NCBI GenBank assembly: GCA_030765065.1
Contig: CM060977.1
Location: 125,616,295 to 125,680,294, forward strand
DNA length: 64,000 bases
Reading direction: 5' to 3'
Source of the DNA: Deroplatys truncata
Lineage: Eukaryota > Arthropoda > Insecta > Mantodea > Mantidae
This document shows, piece after piece, positions 4,093 to 59,733 of the stretch. Below the pieces are notes generated by a model. The model was not told the DNA's origin, made no database searches, and worked only from the letters and a program-made list of their open reading frames with translations. Position 1 is the stretch's first letter; each line of letters starts with the position of its first letter. The translations under genes were made by a program, and so were the position numbers.

Positions 4093-6207
4093 AGAGTGTC
4101 AAGTGTTTGTTACTGATTACAAAGCTCTCTTCCAATAATTTCCTCGACTACCGTTTCCTTCTCCTAGCCTTGCTCGGCGAAATAGTTTCTGTATCATTTC
4201 CTACGTCACTTACTGTTCGAAACTTGCGTAAATATAGGTATAATAGAACAAACAGAGCCACAAACTTCACAAACGACATTTTCCTAATCAAACAATCACC
4301 TGAATGACGAACAAATTTGAAATCACATGGCATCTGACTTAATTGTGTTCGGTCAATATGACAAGAGCCAAGGAGATTGACTTGTTTGGAACTAACACCG
4401 ATTTTATATCCTTAATTTCAGAAACGTTTTTTTTTTCTTTCTTTCTTTTTTCGATACGAATATCCATAGACTGATTATCAAGGGAGATTGTCCACGAGAC
4501 TTGTAGCACAGAATTATGATAGGTACAAAGCAATATACCTAAAATACAGCCGGTAGCCCTCAAAAAGGAAGTAAAACTTAAGAAAACATTTATATTGCGC
4601 GGTGAAGATACTCTCTTGCAACGCTGTGTTTATTACAGAACACGATACGCCAATTCAGATTTTTTAAAATAATGATTCATTTAAAATAATAAAACAGATA
4701 ATCGTGCAAAAACAATATGGAATACACATGTTTAAATAATATAAATTTCGAAAATAGAACTATTCCTCGATTCTGTAATAACACATTACCCACACTCATT
4801 AAGTATTTACTATTTTCCGCGAGTCTTTTTCGATCCATTTCCCGCTCATGTTGCCATATCGGAAAGTTGAATTTCCCGCATTAGTGCTGGTAACCTAACC
4901 TACCTGCGTGATAATTTTGTCTATATTACTGCACCTATGTGCATGAACAATATTAAATTCTCTAACCTTTGACGTATTTGCTATTGCAGGTATGGAATAT
5001 AATAATTTTAGATGAATTTTACCATTTAAATCTTAACCTGTGTATTTACTTCCTTTTTATTTGTTAATATTTACTTACGAATTAATGCATGTGGCAGCTA
5101 AGTATGAGCTGCAAGTTATTAACATTTTTAAGGTCAGCAAACACGCGTGGATAATCAATCGCCAGTTCGCCATCAAGTTGGTAACCTTGCTACTAGAACC
5201 AATGTTCGACATCTGTGAATAATTAATTACTCACTAAAGTAGAAAAATAGTATGCAATACACATGCGTTATGTGCATGTCGATTTCGTCTCGTATTTTCA
5301 AACTCCGCTTCGTACCAATGTACTATTATGTGTGTTGCCATTGACCCATAATTTGTTCAATGCTTTAAATTTCGTTACCGTTCTCATCGACCACTCTCGT
5401 TCCCTCCTGTAATGAATAGCATTAACCTCCAACTAGACCGCCTCTTGTTTCGTAATGAAGATGTTAGTTTTGTTTCAGACCCTTCAAGTGCTAGGGATAC
5501 CCATCTGTGAAAAAAAGAAAAGAAAAAAAAACCAAAATTGCCAAAATTCGTAAATATGGATTTTAGTGCTCTCAAACACTACACATCTGTTACTTCAGGT
5601 TCATATAGGTTTTATAGCTGTAGGACTTTCTAAAACATGTTATAGAATGATTTAAATGTCTGTCTAAAAGCCGAAATTCCCATTGAATTGTAGTAAAATA
5701 CGATAAGTTTTACTTTATACAAGTGAACAAAAACATTCAAGAGAGTCCGAAATCTTTTAGTGGCAGAGAGACAGAAATGATTAAGTAAGCTTGTGTATGC
5801 ACCACATGCTTTTTAAGCAACATCAAGTTAGAAACAGTGTTATTTTAGTGTTATAATTTTAAATTCGCTTTTCTCGGGTTTTCATTTCTTGGCACATTCT
5901 CATTTTCAAAATATTCCACACGATGCTGTTTTCGGTATAAATAATTACATTTTTATACTTCCTTGAATAAAGGATAAAAATGACGAGATGAATTTTTGTT
6001 AACATGCGTAGTTGTGATGTTACTGAACAATAAGTTCATATTGTATAGCTTTTCAGCCAAAAAGTTATTTTCTCAGAAATAATAGGACAATAAAATTCAT
6101 TTCTGCAATTTATTTATGTACTATTAAAGAGTTTAACCATAAAATATTAATTTTTTCACAAAAGAATTCCATGCTGTGGAGCAGTTTTTCAAAACAGTAG
6201 AAAAAAA
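4093..6207. other. unassigned intergenic DNA
   Basis: This AT-rich stretch has no recognised element. Open frames at 4041-4307 (+), 4339-4563 (-) and 5384-5575 (-) match nothing I know and look like chance frames. Confidence 0.45.
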
Positions 6208-7043
6208 TCTGAGGTATTGCACCCACATGACTTTCTCTACTCTTGTCAACTATTTTTACAAACGCTTATTCACCATCTACTTCATGTTAATCGAGATACT
6301 TTTGCAGAAACTATTTTATTGCTACTTTTCTTATAGGTGCGAGGAGAATATGGTAGTGTTTACGCGACAGTCAAATCTTTTAAGAGCTGGTTGCTATGTG
6401 GAACATTCCATTCTCTTTGCATGTCCAGAGCATAAATAAAAGTGAATAACGAATTCCCGTTTGAGAAAAACTATTGCAAAATTCAAACAACAAACAAGGA
6501 ATATCTCGGAAATGGTTCACTCGACAAAAAATGTATATAACAAAGTGTGTGTTTTAACGCGATCCACATTTTTTGTGTAGTAAAATTTTGTCTATCTCTT
6601 ACGGTTTACCAGTTATGTGAGTCATTCAGAACGCAGATGACTTTTGGAGACAATCCCAGAAATTGAGGATATACGTTTCATTTGCTTTGAAAATGTTTTA
6701 AACGTATGATATTTTAATCGAAATCGTTAGAGGTATTTTTGAGAAAATCAAAATTTTCGAAAAATGTATCATGTAAAAGGTAGTATGTGGTGGAAGGATT
6801 TTCTTGAAAATCTTCGTGTCGCATCCTTGGACGATACTAAATTCAAATACCAAGTTTGATATTTATCCGACTTTTCGTTTTTTAGTTATGCTGTTCACTG
6901 ACATAACACATATGGAGATGTTTCCAAAAATGCTTTCTTTAGATTCAGGGCACCTCAAAACATGTATTTCCGTTAAATTACTTATCAAATTTTTTGGTAG
7001 AATGCAACACTTCCCCTACTTACTGTACGTAGTAGAGAAAGTA
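6208..7043 (+). mobile_element. family A element, copy A2
   Basis: A full-length but diverged copy. The start is TCTGAGGTATTGCACCCACA, the inner block TTTTTTGTGTAGTAAAA lies near 6568, and the end is CGTAGTAGAGAAAGTAAT. The CAGACACA microsatellite is nearly gone (only TGACATAACACATATG), which shows that the microsatellite is not essential to the family. A-run on the left flank. Confidence 0.7.
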
Positions 7044-7784
7044 ATAATAAAAATGTTAATATATATGGAAGTAATTTAGAAATACGCATGAAATTTCGTC
7101 TACATATTATATATTAAACTCTCACTGCTGTATTAAGATTTCAAATGAATCATCCTGAAATTGTGGATTTTTTTAAATTTCACCTATGGGTATCACCTAT
7201 GGTTAAAATCGAAAATAAAAGTTTTTGGTTATGATCTTTCTTACGATTTCGAAAATTATGTTTAAATGTAGTACGATTAATCAGTGGCACTAGAGTTATG
7301 CTATACGTAAATGAGACTCAGTAGAAACAACCACATGAAAAATGATATATTTAAATACTTGAATTTTATGGTTGAGAATCGCGTACGTATGGTGTGTAGA
7401 TAGGTATCACAGTACCAAACAAACTGGTTTCAAGTTCAACAACACCGAAGTTGCACGCGCACTTTGCTTGAGGAAACAACACTCTTGAAGCACTTGCACT
7501 TAATCGAAACGAACGCGTGGCCGCTTCGCACACGTCGGCTACACTTTGAAGGGAGTCAGACAGTTGGCACCAAATCTCACGACTTGGCGCGTCGTCCCAC
7601 CTTGGACTAAATATCGTGACAACGCCCCACTCTCGCCTATTTATTTATGTTTAATGCTGACCTCCGTGCTCTAGGATGTAGGTTCGAGTAGCGGATCGGC
7701 AGTTTATACTTGAAATAGAATTACAAATGGGGAATTTTATAGAGAGTACCAAAAGATAGCAGGGAGAGTATAAACCGAAGTAGA
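7044..7784. other. unassigned DNA, possible old repeat
   Basis: From about 7400 to 7700 GC content rises and the sequence carries TTGGCACCAAATCTCACGAC on the plus strand. Its complement resembles a retroelement leader or LTR edge, but I found no partner copy and no ends. I leave it unnamed. Confidence 0.25.
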
Positions 7785-8092: not shown

Positions 8093-9040
8093 CACTAGTC
8101 TGCATGATATTGGGTGACTGAAAACTAAGAAGTGATTCTGACTCACTTTTTATGGTGATTTCATAACTGTTTTTAGTTTTTTTTTCTATCACGTGCAGTT
8201 TTTTCACAATTTCACTTCAAAAATATAGAGATATAAAGATATTGCTTCCGCCACTACCATAAAATTGGGCTTGCTGTAAGGGCTCTACCACAGGATGGAC
8301 CCTGCTTCAAGTACCTTTCCAACAAATTTCCCTTCATTACACAAGACAAATTAAAGGCTGGAATTTTTGTTGGTCCTCAAATAAAGAAATTCATGAAGGA
8401 TGACGATTTTGAGAAGACAATGAATGAGGGAGAAACAGAAGCATGGACCGCCTTCCGATCAGTTTCTGAAAACTTCTTAGGCAATAACAAACATCCTAAC
8501 TACAAGGCCATTGTCGAAACAATGTTGGAAAATTTCAAGAAGATGGGTTGTAACATGAGTGTAAAGGTGCATTTTCTACATTCACATATCGAATACTCTC
8601 TAGAAAATCTGGGACATTATAGTGAAGAGCAGGGTGGACATTTTCACCAAGATATTAAGGAAATGGAGAGGAGGTACCAGGGGAGATGGAATGAAACTAA
8701 AGTGGCCGACTGCTGTTGGATGTTGAGGAGGGACAGTCATCTTCAAGGATCTGCAAGGAAGTCAAAGAAGAGAAAGTTTGAAAAAAGTTGAAACACTTTG
8801 GCTTCTTGTTTTGTTAAAATGTAGTCATGAAATAAATCAGGGGAGTTCTTGAGAGTATTCTTAAAATGTTTCTTGAATAAAAACCTACCTTGTGGGAAAT
8901 GGTATTTGAATACTTTTCTACGCTCATTAGTAAAATTGCCAAAACATTACTTCTTATTTTGAGTAAAAACCTGACGTGATAGAAAAAAACGGAAGTTATT
9001 TCTGGAATCAGCATAAAACCGTGATTCAAGAACGCACAAG
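8093..9040 (+). mobile_element. unclassified ORF module bounded by inverted repeats, copy 1
   Basis: This block matches 58787-59733 in inverted orientation over about 0.95 kb. The reading frame encodes the C-terminal part of a protein family seen many times in insect gene predictions but without a known function. Within the module, a segment of about 48 bp at 8147-8195 recurs inverted at 8974-9018, around the word CTATCACGTG. A pyrimidine tract ending in CACGTGCAG at about 8189-8197 resembles a 3' splice site just before the coding block. The 3' homology continues about 250 bp past the stop. Both copies share the borders, so this looks like a unit that was copied. Superfamily unknown. Confidence 0.5.
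8307..8791 (+). pseudogene. hypothetical element-borne protein, C-terminal part
   Basis: The frame from about 8307 (FKYLSNKFPFITQDKLKAG) runs without a stop to TGA at 8789-8791. The first in-frame ATG of the track is at 8393, but homology begins earlier, so that ATG is not the true start. Recognisable family words are GIFVGPQIKKFM, AWTAFRSV, NFLGNNK, GCNMSVKVHFLHSH, LENLGHYSEEQG, HFHQDIKEMERRYQGRW and ADCCWMLRRD, ending in a basic KKRKFEKS tail. This pattern is widespread in arthropod 'uncharacterized' proteins and is often multi-copy. I know of no assigned enzyme activity. The conserved His, Asp and Cys residues hint at a folded domain but do not identify it. The part upstream of 8307 drifts out of frame, so this is probably a pseudogene. 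Confidence 0.55.
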
Positions 9041-9399: not shown

Positions 9400-9489
9400 A
9401 ACATAAACAGCTCCCTTCCATTATGGGTCACATTTTATGCACGAGAGCATATAAAGGGGACACAGTAGGCTGAATTGAGTCACGTCTTT
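9400..9489 (+). promoter_or_regulatory. possible TATA-type core promoter
   Basis: AGCATATAAAGGGGACACAG at about 9446-9465 has a strong TATA box. It is preceded by a GTAGGGGGTGTGGC motif near 9369. No exon follows, because family A copy A4 starts at 9496. It could be the truncated promoter of an older element or gene, or a chance match. Confidence 0.25.
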
Positions 9490-9495
9490 AAAAAA

Positions 9496-10329
9496 TCTGA
9501 TGCGTTGCATTCACATGACTTTCTCTACCCTCTATCGCTTATTGGTAGGTATACAAATTATTCTTATGAAAGTTTATTTTCCTATCTCCTTCATTATAAT
9601 CGAGATATGTAAAACTTTCCGGAAAAATCGGCAGTACAAATTTCGTTATAGATACAAAGGGAACAGCGTTAGTCAAATGCTTAAGAACAGGACGCTATAT
9701 ACTGACCATAAAATTCCACACTGTTTCCATGCAATCCGAAAAACAACTAAATCTCGACAAGAATTTATAGAATGACAAAAGTATTGAACAATGTGAACCA
9801 TTAATAATGGATGTCTCAAAAATGGCTTGTGCCACTTATAAAGTTATTTGAAATAAATTGTGTGTTTTAAAGAATCTATATTTTTTGTGTAGTACGTTTT
9901 TGTCTATAGCTCAACGTTTATCAACCATACAAGATTATATGAAATCTTGTTCGAATGAAGAGGACTTCACATGCTGTTCCCAGAAAATCCAAATCTAATT
10001 TTCATATTATAGCATTTCAATCAAAACATCAGAGCCATTTTTCAGAAAATTAAATAATCTCGAAAAATCTTCCATACAAAGGGTAGTTTGGGGGGATTTT
10101 CTTGAAAACCTTATGTCGCATCTTTCAAAGATACTGAACTTAAATACCAATGTTGGTACTTATCTGACTTTTCGTTCTTGAGTTATGCTGTTCACAGACC
10201 CAAGGACACACACGCGAATCTTTTTCTAAAAATGCCTTTTTTGGATCCAAGGGGCTCAAAATATACATTTACTGAAATCTCGATATTGAACTTCTCTACC
10301 TCCTATGTACCTATGTAGTAGAGAAAGAA
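9496..10329 (+). mobile_element. family A element, copy A4 (second subfamily)
   Basis: It starts TCTGATGCGTTGCATTCACA and ends TATGTAGTAGAGAAAGAAAA. It belongs with A12 and A15 in a subfamily marked by AAACTTTCCGGAAA, AAAGGGAACAGCG and CAAATGCTTAAGAAC. The microsatellite is reduced to ACAGACCCAAGGACACACAC. Copy A5 follows at once, separated only by an A-run. Confidence 0.65.
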
Positions 10330-10337
10330 AAAAAAAA

Positions 10338-11209
10338 TCTGATGTGTTACACTCACATGACTTTCTCTACTCTTGTACAAACTATTTTTACAAACGCTTA
10401 ATCTCCATATGCTTCATGTTAATGGAGATATCAAGATGTCAATCTTATTGATAATTTTCTTGTAGATGCAAGGGGAATATGGTAAGTTTTAAGCGATAGT
10501 CAAATATTTTAACGCTGGTTGCTATGTGGCGCATTCCATTCTCTTTGCATGTCCAGGACATAAAAAAAATGAATAACGAATTTGAGAAAAAGTATAAGTA
10601 TTGGAAAATTTAAGGGAATAACAAGCAATATCTCGCAAACGGTTCACTCAACAAAAGAAATGTATATGACATAAATTGTGTATTTTAACGCGATCTACAT
10701 TTTTTGTGTAGTAAAATTTTGTCTATCTCTTATGGTTTACCAGTTATGAAAAAGTCGTTCATAATGAAGAATACTTTTGGAGACATTCCCAGAAAATTGG
10801 AGATATACATTTTATTTGTCATGACAATATCTTAAACATATGATATTTTAATCAAAATCGTTAGAGCCGTTTTTGAGAAAATTAAAATTTTCGAAAAATG
10901 TTCCATGTAAAGGGTAGTCTGGGGTGGGGGGATTTTCTTGAAAACCTTCGTGTCGCATCTCTGAAAGATACTGAACCTAAATACCAAGTTTGGTGTTTTT
11001 CCGACTCTTCGTTTTTGAGTTATGCTGTTCACAGACACACAGACACACAGACAGACACACAGACAGACACACACACGGACATGTTTCCAAAAATGCTTTT
11101 TTTGGATTCAGTGAGTCTCAAAACATGTATTTCCGGTGAAATCTCGGTATCGAAATTTTGGGTGGAATACAATACTTCCCCTACTTACTATACGTAGTAG
11201 AGAAAGTAA
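10338..11209 (+). mobile_element. family A element, copy A5
   Basis: A well-preserved copy abutting A4 in tandem across an A-run. It starts TCTGATGTGTTACACTCACA, has its CAGACACA array at about 11032-11074 and ends TACGTAGTAGAGAAAGTAAA. An open frame at 10898-11197 spans the array, but the frame is not kept in copy A14, so I do not treat it as a gene. Confidence 0.75.
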
Positions 11210-11379
11210 ATATGGATCGAAACCGCGTTAGCAAGAAGAGAGTTTTTTTAAGTGGTGTTCAACGCCCGTTCTTACTGCCTGACGGCACCATAGGCGATGC
11301 ACATGGTGATACATGAAATGAAATCATTGGGAAAGAAAATTTGGGAAGGAAACGTTACAGGCAAAAGTTTAGAGTACCT

Positions 11380-23675: not shown

Positions 23676-24355
23676 TACGAGGGCCGTCCAAAAAGTAAGT
23701 TTCCCTATTTTATAAAAAAATATTACATACAATTGATCATGTTGAATTAATTTATTTACATTGCACAACCATGTTTGGGAACGTGACATAAGTTTTTCCA
23801 AGCCAGTGTTGTACCAGGTCGGGTCCTGTGCTCGCAACCACCTGAACACTGATGTGTCTTCATCCTCGGTGTTAAAAGTGCTTACCTTTGAGTTGGAGGA
23901 ACATGTGAAAATCACTTGAGGTGAAAACATAGGATACGAGAAAACTTTCACGTTGAATCTTGACCCAGGCGAAGCTCAGAAGATTCAACTGGGAAGTTTT
24001 CTCGCATCCCCCATATTCACCAGATTTTCCCAAGTGATTTTCACATGCTCCCCTGACTCAAAGATCATCATGGAGGTAAACACTTTAACACCGTGACGAA
24101 GATCAATCAGAAGTGAGCAGCTGGTTACGAGCACAGGGCCCGACTTCTAGTTGGTTGCGAGCAAAGGACACGACCTGGTACAACACTGGCTTGGAAAAAC
24201 TTGTATCACGTCCCCAAAAATGATTGGAAAATCATGTTGACTATGTAGAAAAGTAGCAAAGGATTGTACAATATAAATAAAATTAATTCAACATGATTAA
24301 TTGAGTGTAATGTTTTTTTATATAAAATACGGAAACTTATTTGACGACCCTCGTA
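23676..24355. mobile_element. palindromic mariner derivative
   Basis: TA dinucleotides at 23676 and 24354 flank ends that read CGAGGGCCGTCC and, inverted, CGAGGGTCGTCA. The arms (about 23678-23965 and 23985-24353) are inverted copies of each other, each holding the 3' part of a mariner transposase. The left arm, minus strand, reads VFRWLRAQDPTWYNTGLEKL near its end. The right arm carries FNWEVFSHPPYSPDF on the plus strand, the family's HPPYSPD catalytic-Asp motif. Arms differ by scattered changes, so it is not recent. It cannot encode a whole transposase. Confidence 0.7.
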
Positions 24356-24445
24356 GAATGATGTGGAGTGAAGGAATTTACGAATGGCTTGGATGGTTTT
24401 CGCGTTATTGAATAGTGTTGGAGAATGAGTTCACAGCTAGTGAAG

Positions 24446-24710
24446 GTCGTTCTTCTTGGTGTAGCGGTTACCATGCTAGCCTCTAGTTCCCGAGGTGGCG
24501 ATGGATTTTTTTCGGGCGTAAAAATCCTTAGCATGGCTTCCTCCGGAAGGGAAGTAAAGTCGGTGGTCCCGTGTCGTAGATTTACGGCACGTAAAAGAAC
24601 CTCAAGCCTGATAAAGAGGCCTCTGAGCAAAATTACCGGTCTTTCACGCCCAATATAGAATGGGACGCTAAGGAACACAGCAATCAAAGAGCGTCCATAA
24701 ATAAAATCTC
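24446..24710 (+). mobile_element. SINE family C (copy 3)
   Basis: The head is shortened: GTGTAGCGGTTACCATGCTA is present but the B box segment is deleted, as in copy 2. The body runs from GGATTTTTTTCGGGCG to GCGTCCATAAATAAAATC. Shared loss of the B box in copies 2 and 3 could mark a subfamily. Confidence 0.75.
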
Positions 24711-25240
24711 GATATTGTTTTACAGCGAATGAAGAAATTAATATCCAATTAAAGTGCTTATTACTTATTGAGCTAGATCCATATTTTGGAGGTAACCCAA
24801 CATATTTAAAAATATACAGAAACCTACTAGAAAGATACGCAGGAAGTCCGCATGTAAATGAAAGATTTTAATTAATCAGGAAAACAAGGTAAAAATGCAT
24901 CGTGCGGACCCAAAAACACGGCCAGTCCGGTCTAAGCGACGACGGTACGAGAACATACCGCAATGTTTCGTTTCCGATCAATGCTGAAAGTTAACTGAAC
25001 TCCAATTTGCAGCTTGCAGTCAGTAAGTTTCTCCACAACAGTAAAACATACTCTCAGAAGAAAACCGTATGGATTTCTTTCCGCACGGATAAAAGCATTG
25101 TGTGTGAACGCGGACGGAACGGACAAGCTGGCTCAAACCGCGCTGTTGTCACAGCTAATCTTGATTTTAATGAGAGCATCGGGTCCAAAACAGCCGATGT
25201 TCCCGTTATAAGTATTTTATTCCCAAACGGGAATACACAT
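24711..25240. other. unassigned intergenic DNA
   Basis: Frames at 24932-25126 (-) and 25007-25261 (+) overlap and match nothing I know. Confidence 0.35.
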
Positions 25241-25574: not shown

Positions 25575-26665
25575 ATTTCTGCACACTGGCATATTACTTT
25601 CCATCGCGATAAATTGATCTGCTTAAAATTTCCCATGCGTTCTCCATAGTGTTTAGGTCTGCAGAAAGTGCGGGCCATTCCACAACACTAACACCTTTGC
25701 AATGAAACCAATTCCTTGTGAATTCAGCAGTTTAGATACTTACTTGCATTGTCCTGCTGAAATATCCAATTCACTGTTCCAATCCTTTGTGCAACTGGTA
25801 AAAGGTACTCTTCAAGCAATGTCTGATAGTGTATGGCTTTCATACGACCTGCAGGGAATGCAAGATGTGCTTTCCCTCAATGTCCGAATCCACCCCATAC
25901 CTACAGAGACTTTCCTCTGTGCTGCCTCTTTGAAAACTGTTCCTTTCTGAGCTCGATAGTAGAGCACAGTCGTCAGGAACGTATAAATTGAATTCCTTTT
26001 CATCACTAAATATTACACGCTTCCATTCTTCCTTCCAGGTGACGTGTTCCTTAACCCAGTCAACACGTCTCTGTTTATGACGGACTGCCAAACGGGGTTG
26101 CGTTTTCAGTTTCTTGTTTTTCAATATGTTTGACTAACCCGGACCACGTCAATTTGTCAACATTGACGGTGGGATCACGAGCAAGTTGTCCCAGCGATGA
26201 ATCACTAGCACCGAGTTTTCTGATCAGTTGTCGTCCTCCGTGGACTAGTGGTACCGTGCTAGCCTCCGGTTCCCAAGGTCGCGGGTTCAAACCCGGCGGA
26301 GGGCGATGGATTTTTTCGGGCGTAAAAATCCTTAGCATGGCTTCCATCGGAAGGGAAGTAAAGCCGGTGGTCCCGTGTCGTAGATTTACGGCACGTAAAA
26401 GAACCTCAAGCCTGATAAAGAGGCATCTGAGCAAAATTACCGGTCTTTCACGCCCAATATGGAATGGGACGCTAAGAACCATAGTAGTTAAAGAGCGTCC
26501 ATAAATAAAAAAAAAACTCAATGATCACTTGTGTCTTCTGTCGAGGCGTAAGTTTTTGATGTCTTCCAGACGACCTGTTTGTTCCATAATTATTTCCTAG
26601 CTTCAGAAAGTTATTTATCACGTATGGTGATTTGCCAAGCCTTCTTGCTATTGAGAAGAACATGC
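25575..26665 (-). pseudogene. Tc1-family transposase relic
   Basis: The minus strand shows three recognisable parts. The N-terminal helix-turn-helix region is SIARRLGKSPYVINNFLKLG with NRSSGRHQKLTPRQK (26480-26663). The middle has RLAVRHKQRRVDWVKEHVTW and KRVIFSDEKEFNLYVPD (about 25960-26110), which contains the first catalytic-Asp neighbourhood (SDEKEFNL). The C-terminal part has VVEWPALSADLNTMENAWEI (about 25630-25690), corresponding to the WPARSPDLNPIENLW motif of DD34E elements. Frames are broken and the SINE splits N-terminal from middle, so the protein cannot be made. Its role would have been cut-and-paste transposition at TA sites. Confidence 0.65.
26221..26531 (+). mobile_element. SINE family C (copy 4) with 10-bp target duplication
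   Basis: TGATCAGTTG (26221-26230) and TGATCACTTG (26522-26531) flank a full-length SINE (26231-26521). The tRNA-like head has A box GTGGACTAGTGG and B box GGGTTCAAACCCGG. The tail is ATAAATAAAAAAAAAACTCA. It lies inside the Tc1 transposase and therefore postdates it. This is the best reference copy of the family here. Confidence 0.85.
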
Positions 26666-44401: not shown

Positions 44402-44980
44402 CAAGATATTCAATCACTACTTCATAAAGCCAACAAGCAAGAAAAGCAAGTGTCTTTAATATGGATTCCACCCCAAATTGGAATATAACGCAACTAATTA
44501 GCCGATCAGGCAGCAAAAGAAGCCATTAAACATCCACTAGTGATCCAAGTATAACTATACCAGCCCATGATGTTATCTCAACCATTAAAAAGAAGCTCTA
44601 CCAACAGTGGAAGACAGGATGGCTCGCCTCCACGAGAAGGAAACTCCGTGATATAATATCGAGGTTTTCGACATGTCCTCCCAGTAATTCTCTTTCCAGG
44701 CAAGTTCAGGTATTAATATCCCGACTGAGAATGGGTCATACCAAGATCACACATAGGCAATTTCTTTCAAAGGACCAACCACCCATCTGCCACCAGTGTA
44801 AAATACTGTTAACGACGAAACACATAATCATGGAATGTCCACAATACAACCAATGGAGAAAACACTACTACATACCCAATGATTTACAAACAGCACTCAA
44901 CTATTCGATGTACCCTAAGATACCTGAATTTTTTAAAACCATAAATTTATCTAAAACATACAATGTTCAATCAATTTGAT
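44402..44980 (+). mobile_element. LINE ORF2 RNase H and C-terminal fragment
   Basis: Plus strand: SLIWIPPQIGI and ADQAAKEAI (about 44452-44530) match the last part of a LINE-encoded RNase H (WIPSHVGIxGNExADxAAK). Then MGHTKITHRQFLSKDQPPIC and CHQCKILLTTKHIIMECPQY (44731-44850) match the H/C-rich tail of I- or Jockey-type LINEs. The frame ends with a stop at 44977-44979. The RNase H part is interrupted, so the copy is dead. 5' truncation is usual for LINEs. Confidence 0.7.
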
Positions 44981-51363: not shown

Positions 51364-53160
51364 ATTACTAGAAACAGCTTGCATCATGTGCCTCTCTATT
51401 CTGTTGTAGAAGTTAACAGTCTGTTAGTTTTGGCAATGGAAGCCTGAAACACGGCCTAAAGGATTTACTTTCATCCCTAAACTTGAAGCAATCTTTGGAT
51501 TCACTCTCGGAAAAGGGTTTGGAAAGAGAATGTCGTACATTTTCAGAAAAGCTGGAAGATTTTTATGAAGCGTGCATTGATTAGTACAAAAATGAATAAG
51601 CCCTTTGAAGGAATTTGAGTATTTCCATGGATCCAAGTTCAAAATATTAAAGTCAAACTAATCAAATTAATCCTTGTTCTGAGCATCCTCAAAGAAATCC
51701 TATGAAGTTAAGAGGACTCGCTATTTTTGAGTAGTTTTCTGTGTTCAACAATAATTTTACAATTTCTGGTGTGGATCGAAATTAATGCTTAATCATCAGT
51801 GTTGTGAATTTCTAAGATGTAATAACAGAATTGAACATTCAATGAACTTCTTAAAATTTTGCAATTCCGAGCGACTGCGAGGGTGTTTTCTCTGACCAAT
51901 GCTCAGTGGACAAAAGAAAGAGACGCCGAATAATAGGGTTAGTTAAACGCATTATTGTTGTTGTGAAGAATTTTACAAGTACTTGTTCCAGAAATATAAT
52001 GCATTTCTTCTGTCAAACCTAGGGCTGCGGACAAGAATCATGTTGTTTTTCCAACCAATATAGCTTCAGCATCGTCAACACAAATTTAAGGTATGCTATT
52101 TTCGAAGCTATAAAAAGAGCTCGTTAAAAGCTATAAAAAAACTGAACATTAGATTATCCTGCAAATTGTGCTTTAGATATGGCAATTATAGCCATGATTA
52201 AAATTTTCTCCGTGCTGGTAAAGCTGGCTCTAAATGATTTATGTATCCATACAATAAAAAGTGCAATTTCGACTAACGTTGTTCACAACACCTTACTGTA
52301 AACTCTCTCATCCTTATTTTAAGATTAAGTTAATGATGATATGGTGACTCTGTATACAATGCAGTTTTATATGCCCCCTGTTATTAATGAAGTATAGTTT
52401 TAGTGATATTACAACACGTGTAGATGCACAAGAGCACCAGTGTGAGAAAGAGACCCTGTTTAAAAACGTTCAGCCATAACCGTTGCGCACAGCGTTACAG
52501 AATACCCTTGTAGGGATTTGATGATTTCAGTTTTAGTTTTTCCATATTTTTCATCCAGTTTCAACTGAATGACTATGTCCGTGATAAGAAATAGTAATCA
52601 TTACAGGAAGAAAGCAGACATGCAATGGAAACAGAAGGGATGCGAAACCCAAGCCTAAGAAGTTATCAAACTTCGTAGAATACTGTTGGTATCACTGTAA
52701 CTTATGAAAATAGCTTCAACAGAGGCTTTTCCTGGATTGGTTTCCTTGTCTCAAGGTGATGCATCTGTACTATATCATCTATCTGTCTATAACACTACTC
52801 TGCATGAGTATGGAAATATGCTCTAATTCCCAAGAATGCATGTAAATACCTATGTATTGAGCTTCACTAGAGCAGTATATTCACAAAAAGATGATACACA
52901 TTTTTCACTTTCTTTGGCTACCGAAGAATATAACCAAACCACTTCTATTTTGAGCACTCTCACACCTTCACTCGCGTGCGACAGGTCCTAGGTTCACTAC
53001 GGGCACACACGACACTATCATATAAACTGCCGGCTAGGTCAGCAGATGACTGAACTGCCGGCTACTGACTTGTGCCCACTTGTCGGACTGTGATGATGAC
53101 ATAATGAGAGGGGAATGACGGAAACAGTACACCAGCTGCTTGTCTATTGGATGAATGCTA
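51364..53160. other. unassigned intergenic DNA
   Basis: No element or gene recognised over 1.8 kb. Near 53037-53090 the word AACTGCCGGCTA occurs twice, about 38 bp apart. Confidence 0.4.
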
Positions 53161-54873: not shown

Positions 54874-55603
54874 TACGAGGGCAGTCCAGAAAGTCCCAGA
54901 GGTTTTGGCCTTCGTGGCGATGAGTAGGGCTAGAGCCGCCATCTTAGTGTCAGAACGATCCTACATTCAGTACGCATCCAACAGCTGTAGCGTGAAGACT
55001 GTGTCTTCCTTACTGTGCTCTCTGTGAGTTGTTAAAATGTGCGCTGCAATAGAAAATCCCGCCAATTGTGAAGTGCGGTTGGCTAAAAAGAACAAACCAA
55101 TTGAAATTTATCGTCAATTTTGTGATGTTTACGGGCAGGGAATAATGAGTGAAAGCCGAGTCAGGCAATGGTGCATTGATTTTAAAAATGGCCGTACCAA
55201 TGTTCACCACGAGGATCGCAGTGGTAGGCCTAGCCTTATGACTGATGAACTGTCAATGCAAATCAATGAGAAAATTCCTGAAAATCGTCGTTTCACGATT
55301 ACAGATATTTGGGAACATTTTCCCCAAATTTCACGGAGTTTGGTGCATCAAATTGATGCTACGATACTGACGCTGAACTGCATGCCGGTGTAAACCAGTG
55401 GTTGAAGTCGCAGGCGGCAGACTTCTACAGAGAGGGTATTGAAAAACTTGTGACACGGTATGATAAATGCCTCAATTTGAATGGCGATTATGTAGAAACA
55501 TAGCTTAAGAGTGTACCTTTTAAATGTAGATAATAAACGTTGATACTGCATTTTGTTAATTGTTTATTTCAAAACGTCTGGGACTTTCTGGATTATCCTC
55601 GTA
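54874..55603 (+). mobile_element. internally deleted mariner with both ends
   Basis: TA at 54874-54875 and 55602-55603 bound the element. The left end reads CGAGGGCAGTCCAGAAAGTC and the right end, inverted, CGAGGATAATCCAGAAAGTC; both continue into CCAGA(G/C)GTTTTG-like sequence. The transposase start and stop regions are present, but the middle third to two thirds is missing. Such deletion derivatives can be mobilised in trans if a matching transposase exists. Confidence 0.8.
55037..55505 (+). pseudogene. mariner transposase, internally deleted
   Basis: The N-terminal part starts at ATG 55037: CAAIENPANCEVRLAKKNKP, then VRQWCIDFKNGRTNVHHEDR, SGRPSLMTDELSMQINEKIP and ENRRFTITDIWEHFPQISRS. This is the helix-turn-helix DNA-binding region of the SETMAR/mariner type. 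Straight after it (about 55350) comes the extreme C-terminus in another frame: VNQWLKSQAADFYREGIEKL and VTRYDKCLNLNGDYVE. About 200 of the usual 340-350 residues, including all catalytic Asp residues, are lost. The first frame stops at 55391-55393. It might still encode a DNA-binding fragment, but that is speculation. Confidence 0.75.
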
Positions 55604-57718: not shown

Positions 57719-58002
57719 TTGAGTTTTATTTATAGACGCTCTTTAACTACTATGGTCCTTAGCGTCCCATTATATTGGGCGTGAAAGACCGGTAATTTTG
57801 CTAAGAGACCTCTTTATCAGGCTTGAAGTTCTTTTACGTGCCATAAACCTACGACAGGGGACCACCGGCTTTACTTCCCTTCCGAAGGAAGTTATGTTAA
57901 GGACTTTTACGCCCGAAAAAATCCATCGCTCTCTGTCGGATTTGAACCCGCGGCCTCTGGAACCAGAGGCTAGCATGCTTCCCCTAATCCACGGAGGGCG
58001 AC
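57719..58002 (-). mobile_element. SINE family C (copy 6)
   Basis: Full length on the minus strand, from TCGCCCTCCGTGGATTAGGG to GCGTCTATAAATAAAACTCA. The B box is GCGGGTTCAAATCCGAC. A target duplication is not clear. The frames here are SINE shadows. Confidence 0.8.
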
Positions 58003-58464
58003 ATTACGCTCTTAGGATGCATCCGTTCAGTAAATTACTAACAGATATAAAATCAAATACGGAAACAGTTTTAAGACGCGAAAGAAGAGTTAAAAATCTA
58101 CTGCATTTCATGAATATTTTTCTTGTAATTATAATAGCATTTAAAGCTCGAATGACGGTTTAATTAATTTTATTTATCTCTCCCAACCCTTTATGAAATT
58201 ATTGTACAGTCATCTAGAAGGTTTTAGTGGTGAATCCTCCCCTTACAGTTTTAATTTCCTTATTCTTAATAACGGATTAAAAAAAAACTGATATTCGCGC
58301 AAAAGTATGTATAACATCGGCGGAACGTCCGACTTCCTTAAGCTCCTCCCCCCGACAGTCCTCCATGTTCTGGAAGTGACACATATCCTATAAGTACCCT
58401 TTGATGTTGCAACAACTATCGATCTGTATGGTGTCGAGTAATTTTGTATACAATCAAAGTAGGT

Positions 58465-58665: not shown

Positions 58666-58786
58666 CTGTAAGAAAGAAAGCAATTCCTCATAACTGCGTT
58701 CTGATACCCCCAGCTATTTTCGAAATGTTAGTATTATAACACTAGACTGCATTTTCAAACATTTTGTTAGTTGATTTCTTAAAAGT

Positions 58787-59733
58787 AAGTGTTCTTGAAT
58801 CAAGTTTTTATGCTGATTCCAGAAATAACTTCCGTTTTTTTTTTCTATCACGTGAGAATTTTACACAAAATAAGAAGTAATGTTTTGACAATTTTACTAA
58901 TGAGCGTAGAAAAGTATTCAAATACCATTTCACAAAAGGTAAGTTTTTATTCAAGAAACATTTTAAGAATACTCTCAAGAACTACCCTAATTTATTTCAT
59001 GACTACATTTTAACAAAACAAGAAGTCAAAGTGTTTCACTTAATTTTTTTCAAACTTTCTCTTCTTTGACTTCCTTGCAGATCCTTGAAGATGACTGTCC
59101 CTCCTCAACATCCAACAGCAGTCGGCCACTATAGTTTCACTCTATCTCCACTGGTACCTCCTCTCCGTTTTCTTAATATCTTGGTGAAAACGTTCACCCT
59201 GCTCTTCACTATAATGTCCCAGATTTTCTGCAAACTATTCGATATGTGAATGCAGAAAATGCACCTTTACACTCATGTTACAACCCATTTTCTTGCAATT
59301 TTCGAACATTGTTTCGACAATGGTCTTGTAATTACGATCTTTGTTATTGCCTAAGAAATTTTCAGTAACTGATCGGAAGGCGGTCCATGCTTCTGTTTCT
59401 CTTTCATTCATTGTCTTATCAAAATCTTCATCCTTCTTCAATTTCTTTATTTGAGGACCAACAAAAATTCCAGCCTTTAATTTGTCTTGTGTAATGAAGG
59501 GAAATTTCTTGGAAAGGCACTTGAAGCAGGGTCCATACTGTAGTAGAGCCCAAATTGCTTCATCTAGCTCAATTTTATGTGTAGTGGCTGAAGCAATATC
59601 TTTATATCTCTATATTTTTGAAGTAAAATTGTGAAAAAACTGTAAGTAATAGAAAAAAAAACAACTAAAAGCAGTTCTGAAATCAGCATAAAAAGTGAGT
59701 CAGAATCACTTTCATGTAGACTAGTGTAATCAG
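58787..59733 (-). mobile_element. unclassified ORF module bounded by inverted repeats, copy 2
   Basis: Inverted relative to copy 1 at 8093-9040 and alike over nearly all its length. An inverted pair of about 48 bp (58805-58852 and 59646-59694) brackets the coding block, as in copy 1. A TTTTTTTTTCTATTACTTACAG-like tract (read on the minus strand, about 59660-59640) is a strong 3' splice-site candidate. Upstream minus-strand sequence to about 60000 contains a further open frame ending in HESDSDSLFMLISE. Superfamily unknown. Confidence 0.5.
59036..59520 (-). pseudogene. hypothetical element-borne protein, copy 2
   Basis: Minus-strand frame with the same words as copy 1: DKLKAGIFVGPQIKKLKKDE, NERETEAWTAFRSVTENFLG, GCNMSVKVHFLHSHIE and, after interruption, ENLGHYSEEQGERFHQDIKK. 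It retains the Arg in GERFHQD that copy 1 has changed to His. A few in-frame interruptions make it a pseudogene. Further upstream ILLQPLHIKLS (about 59600) matches the usual N-terminal neighbour LLPPLHIKLGL of the family. Confidence 0.55.

Follow-up and report, generated by a model that had tools for sequence, protein, structure and literature searches.

Analysis of a 64,000-nucleotide stretch of Deroplatys truncata DNA (hereafter, the window) indicated that a coding module starting at position 8093, originally predicted to be a mobile unit with a spliced gene, is very probably a non-autonomous internal-deletion derivative of a ~2.3-kb CMC-type cut-and-paste transposon, best placed with the Chapaev3 group, in an insect-like genome. 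The derivative is ~1,005 bp long and resembles a miniature inverted-repeat transposable element (MITE). Its copies have common outer ends, TWA target duplications (W being A or T) and a TAGAG deletion junction, there are longer relatives with an undeleted gene, and the copies have decayed neutrally. This is an ordinary non-autonomous family of a known kind, that is, mobile DNA and not a gene with a missing exon. The terminal inverted repeats at both ends have been retained in the derivative, as have ~190 codons at the 3' end of the transposase gene. The ~1.3 kb that was deleted comprises the cysteine-rich N-terminal part and two candidate catalytic aspartates, and because of this loss the module has no upstream coding part and no full transposase can be made from it.

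Two copies of the family were found in the window (Table 1). Copy A, the module itself, occupies 8093-9033 and has lost its right tip, its homology ending ~60 bp before the position at which that tip should lie. Copy B is complete at 987 bp with TAA at either side, and homology plus the 14-bp tips account for all of it (59726-58740). The two copies share the element start, CACTAGTCTRCATG, and are 92% identical over 921 columns (59711-58791 of copy B, minus strand). The inverted copies reported to bracket the coding block are real (8139-8204 versus 8965-9028, 76% identity over 67 columns, E 6e-6 within 1.4 kb), and copy B has an equivalent pair, also at 76% identity. They represent the inner portion of ~100-bp imperfect terminal inverted repeats, the outer tip of which, CACTAGTCTGCATG, starts exactly at 8093 in copy A. 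That homology has shared borders near these inverted copies was correct in so far as there are common outer ends, but the repeats are longer than described, the tip is at 8093 and copy A ends at 9033. The coding block is also real, being a frame of 184 amino acids without a stop (8237-8791). Transposase homology in copy A starts upstream of that frame, at a junction near 8226, and small indels at ~8255-8280, seen when copy A is read against the majority sequence, shorten the frame. The tip pattern, with up to two mismatches, was present at five sites in the window versus 1.14 expected, a number reached in none of 100 shuffles; copies A and B account for three of these sites. At 52793-52806 the sequence CACTACTCTGCATG follows TAA and has one mismatch to the element tip; no partner right end was seen for it in the window.

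The 4.29-Gb genome (818 contigs) was searched with the module, giving 2220 first-look candidates, of which the best 40 were scored. All 40 scored matches, copy A included, were nearly end to end, and 17 extra rows were cross-matches between inverted repeats. The set analyzed consisted of the 41 best-scoring copies (39 fetched loci and copies A and B). Both ends were present in 37 of these; the left end was unrecognised in L019, and the right end was absent in L032, L043 and copy A. Among the 37 two-ended copies, 33 start with CAC, 32 finish with GTG, and the left tip is free of mismatches in 23. Of the same 37, 28 are flanked by an exact 3-bp target duplication (TTA 14, TAA 13, TTC 1; i.e., TWA in 27 of 28), and the remaining nine are not. 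The duplications were preceded by A in 27 of 28 cases and followed by T in 27, with both neighbours present in 26. Matches between 3-mers at shifted offsets in the same flanks occurred at 2.0%. The original prediction was right in that the unit is mobile and discrete, the copies sharing outer ends and having target-site duplications, and is not a lone pseudogene. Divergence of the copies from the majority sequence was 1.6-4.4%, probably lower than the whole-family value because the copies examined were the top-scoring ones.

When the two flanks of one copy, L023, were joined, the resulting sequence aligned across the join, at 70-76% identity, with five copies of a local repeat in the window that carry no element; the alignments had small gaps close to the join but none at it. 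In these alignments the L023 target looks like an empty site, at modest identity. The repeat, a member of which seems to have been the insertion target of L023, is a dispersed ~830-bp sequence with many diverged copies in the window (6196-7050, 9484-10312 and 10326-11216), several of them in close succession. Further places were near 1611, 12949, 13613, 35647, 41273 and 53700.

A 94-residue query for the protein family gave 150 scored places (E ~1e-45 to 1e-33) among 11,024 candidates, ten of which were retrieved together with 4 kb of flank on either side. Two (L076 and L077) are members of a sister family, described below. In the other eight (L068-L075), the alignment with the derivative is split into two pieces ~1.3 kb apart, the left piece ending at position 136-138 and the right piece starting at 132-143. 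The extra ~1.3 kb is sequence that the module lacks and includes most of the transposase gene. Both tips were recognised in six of the eight (L068-L073), the left one being displaced by ~1 kb in L070 and unrecognised in L074 and L075. Tip-to-tip length was 2260-2316 bp in L068, L069, L071, L072 and L073, and four of the six two-ended relatives (L069-L072, not L068 or L073) have an exact TWA duplication. TAGAG was found at both parent sites in four of the six loci examined at the junction (L068, L069, L073 and L074, not L071 or L072). Past TAGAG the derivative reads ATATAAAG and the parents AGACAAAAG; therefore, either the founder differed slightly there or a few bases were altered by repair. 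In a later genome search with part of the L068 frame, for which the best 150 places among 18,204 candidates were scored, the match in 13 of the 150 rows begins immediately ahead of the CFLC motif, at query residue 20 or 21, a pattern that hints at a second deletion derivative with a different junction.

The longer relatives bear directly on whether the mobile unit carries a spliced gene, in which the coding block would be the 3' exon, other exons would lie upstream and the acceptor would be within the left repeat or next to it. The pyrimidine tract and AG noted before the block do exist, and the AG, near 8198, is kept in 33 of 38 aligned copies. In addition, Chapaev3 transposases, as described in PMC4079192, are mostly encoded by one exon but by two in the Merrow and Garfield families. 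However, the tract belongs to the left inverted repeat, the right repeat has a similar tract followed by CAG, and no intron is seen at the supposed acceptor. In L068 a stop-free frame of 534 residues opens ~300 bp inside the left tip and continues past the junction point as far as the FHQD and RYQG motifs; an uninterrupted frame of 476 residues in L069 crosses the same point. The block adjoins the repeat as a result of the internal deletion, and there is no sign of a missing upstream exon, the upstream part having been removed with the ~1.3 kb. We therefore rejected a spliced gene as highly improbable. These copies show how an exon preceded by a splice acceptor can be mimicked when a deletion brings a terminal repeat up against the 3' part of a gene. 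That a pseudogene was simply copied by segmental duplication might be suggested by the occurrence of two copies within one window, but with copies dispersed on many contigs, common ends and target duplications, the probability of this is negligible.

We also considered whether the retained fragment acts as a truncated-transposase regulator, its C-terminal product repressing the parent transposase and its frame being under selection. KP, a truncated product, represses the P element transposase in this way. In the majority sequence here the frame stays open between the repeat and the stop codon, and it is intact in 11 of 38 aligned copies; the rate of change is slightly lower at coding positions (2.2-2.65%) than in the left (3.5%) and right (3.0%) parts. 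Against this, the ratio of nonsynonymous to synonymous change (dN/dS) among 37 copies, corrected for the noncoding spectrum, was 1.10, as it was for singletons alone. There were 19 stop changes among the 37 copies, 25 of 26 coding indels were frameshifts, and the window copies are themselves frameshifted or stopped. The copies are thus decaying neutrally, and selection on the fragment was rejected, the lower coding change rate not being read as selection because dN/dS is ~1.1. There is very little chance that such a regulator accounts for the fragment. It also seems very unlikely that the family spread partly through an expressed C-terminal product, with its H(4)H motif and candidate catalytic glutamate, which bound or poisoned the full transposase before decay began; if true, this would be a built-in repressor travelling with the element.

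Based on the known behaviour of such elements, the internal deletion may have arisen from interrupted gap repair after excision, and the transposase of the longer copies would then act in trans on the retained terminal repeats. Insertion at ATWAT sites would have produced very many copies of the derivative, and the C-terminal frame likely has no function of its own. The protein family of the coding block is known as one of uncharacterised insect proteins, and its likely identity is the transposase of a RAG1/Transib-related transposon group.

Table 1. Features of the two derivative copies in the window.
Feature	Position	Strand	Basis
Copy A, left end intact, last ~60 bp and right tip missing	8093..9033	+	genome copy alignment
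Tip of left terminal inverted repeat, CACTAGTCTGCATG; ATAA lies directly before it (A, then a TWA target site)	8093..8106	+	
Left terminal/subterminal inverted repeat; acceptor-like pyrimidine tract and AG at inner edge	8093..8194	+	
TAGAG microhomology at internal-deletion junction, copy A	8226..8230	+	
C-terminal third of transposase frame, frameshifted near 8255-8280; H(4)H near 8570; stop codon 8789-8791	8226..8791	+	
Right inverted repeat of copy A, outer part missing	8974..9033	+	
Copy B, complete element, 987 bp	58740..59726	-	
Left tip of copy B, CACTAGTCTACATG	59713..59726	-	
Right tip of copy B, CACTAGACTGCATT as read on plus strand	58740..58753	+	
TAA target-site duplication, one side of copy B	58737..58739	.	
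TAA target-site duplication, other side of copy B	59727..59729	.	
TAGAG deletion junction, copy B	59608..59612	-	

The transposase motifs identified in the family alignment were CFLC (C(2)C), PPLHIKLG (LH) and HFLHSH (H(4)H), of which the module retains LH and H(4)H but not C(2)C. Several CxxC pairs are present in the N-terminus of L068, where a Chapaev3 transposase would have its Chapa zinc finger. Candidate DDE residues were placed by position, with the RAG1 spacing as a guide, in FID, GDFK and SEEQGE, the structure model being too weak over the aspartates; the GDFK aspartate lies 19 residues ahead of the first cysteine in CFLC. The protein profile search suggested with the original prediction returned no Pfam family at E ≤ 0.1 among 18 family members, and because no Pfam model matches, automatic annotation may keep labelling copies as genes. 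Sub-threshold Pfam hits of the 184-residue fragment (ARL2_Bind_BART, E 0.0021, 18.7 bits versus a cut-off of 23; FNIP_C, E 0.19) and of three longer frames (AMG1_II, E 0.22) were ignored. A single-protein sequence search of the PDB gave no match, profile searches of the PDB gave weak, unrelated matches (best E 0.65 and 0.023), and Foldseek against the PDB gave nothing at E ≤ 0.001. A fold model of the 184-residue fragment alone had a mean predicted local distance difference test score (pLDDT) of 45.0 and was not used. One search of viral contigs gave six pattern matches, none of them confirmed; other pattern searches of viral and GTDB contigs gave no match, and no relatives were found in phages.

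The sister family, in the same genome, has tips CACTGGGGAACA, and ATWA...TWAT was observed at all eight distinct two-ended loci among ten distinct loci examined. Its loci include L048/L076 and L067/L077 (each pair being the same place), L051, L052, L053, L057, L078 and L089, with lengths of ~1.9-2.3 kb and a transposase 44-53% identical to that of L069. L084, L090, L096 and L097 belong to more distant subfamilies of the same transposase. Elsewhere in the window, three frames (24337-24867 and 26075-26524, minus strand; 57747-58163, plus strand) have the common peptide GRERPVILLR...LEVLLRA and represent a repeat with a conserved frame. We presume that a frame at 55028-55393 resembles the N-terminus of a mariner-type transposase and one at 44530-44979 the RNase H end of a non-long terminal repeat (non-LTR) retrotransposon.

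The original prediction left the superfamily open, and a CMC-type element can now be proposed. The piggyBac target site is TTAA, and piggyBac was rejected as the duplications here are TWA. PIF/Harbinger, for which TWA would fit, is not supported, as the 18 members matched no Harbinger-type profile or any other Pfam family at E ≤ 0.1. Transib target duplications are 5 bp, which does not agree with the 3 bp found here. Our element has the motif order of Transib and RAG1 and may have a related fold, for which there is a weak match (model residues 138-270 versus RAG1 789-959 and HzTransib 268-426), but no sequence match was detected in the PDB. Chapaev and Chapaev3 are placed inside a broad Transib superfamily, with RAG1 in the TransibSU clade, in one published scheme (PMC4411706), and EnSpm, Mirage, Chapaev and Transib are grouped by C(2)C and H(3-4)H motifs in a CMCT clade in another (PMC12730594). 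CACTAGA tips are described for Kenshin (PMC4298943), which was the reason for considering piggyBac.

The derivative could also be of the same kind but from the EnSpm/CACTA branch, a placement that we consider unlikely. The CAC..GTG termini, 3-bp duplications and C(2)C and H(3-4)H motifs would all fit EnSpm/CACTA as described in PMC12730594. However, the strong preference for TWA between a preceding A and a following T, the small size of the undeleted element (2.3 kb) with its single long frame, and the motif set C(2)C/LH/H(4)H agree with the description of Chapaev3 (PMC4079192), and those animal CACTA-like (TRC) elements with published ends start with CCC and have 2-bp duplications (PMC1636069).

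Overall, the termini, TWA duplications, length, motifs and weak fold match appear to fit the Chapaev3 group best. As far as its published description extends, that group (Garfield, Merrow, Conan) has CAC..GTG tips, TWA duplications between A and T, and C(2)C, LH and H(4)H motifs, and is similar to the family described here in the ~2.3-kb length of the undeleted element (Garfield_BM is 2,289 bp and encodes 556 amino acids), in having, for the most part, a single exon and in its internal-deletion derivatives (PMC4079192). Unlike the Chapaev3 elements, compared by description, the derivative here retains about one third of the gene. MITEs such as GarfieldN1_BM and ConanN1_AC, which are described as direct internal-deletion derivatives of Chapaev3 elements (PMC4079192), are close parallels; the derivative here is ~1 kb long and has a sizeable coding remnant.
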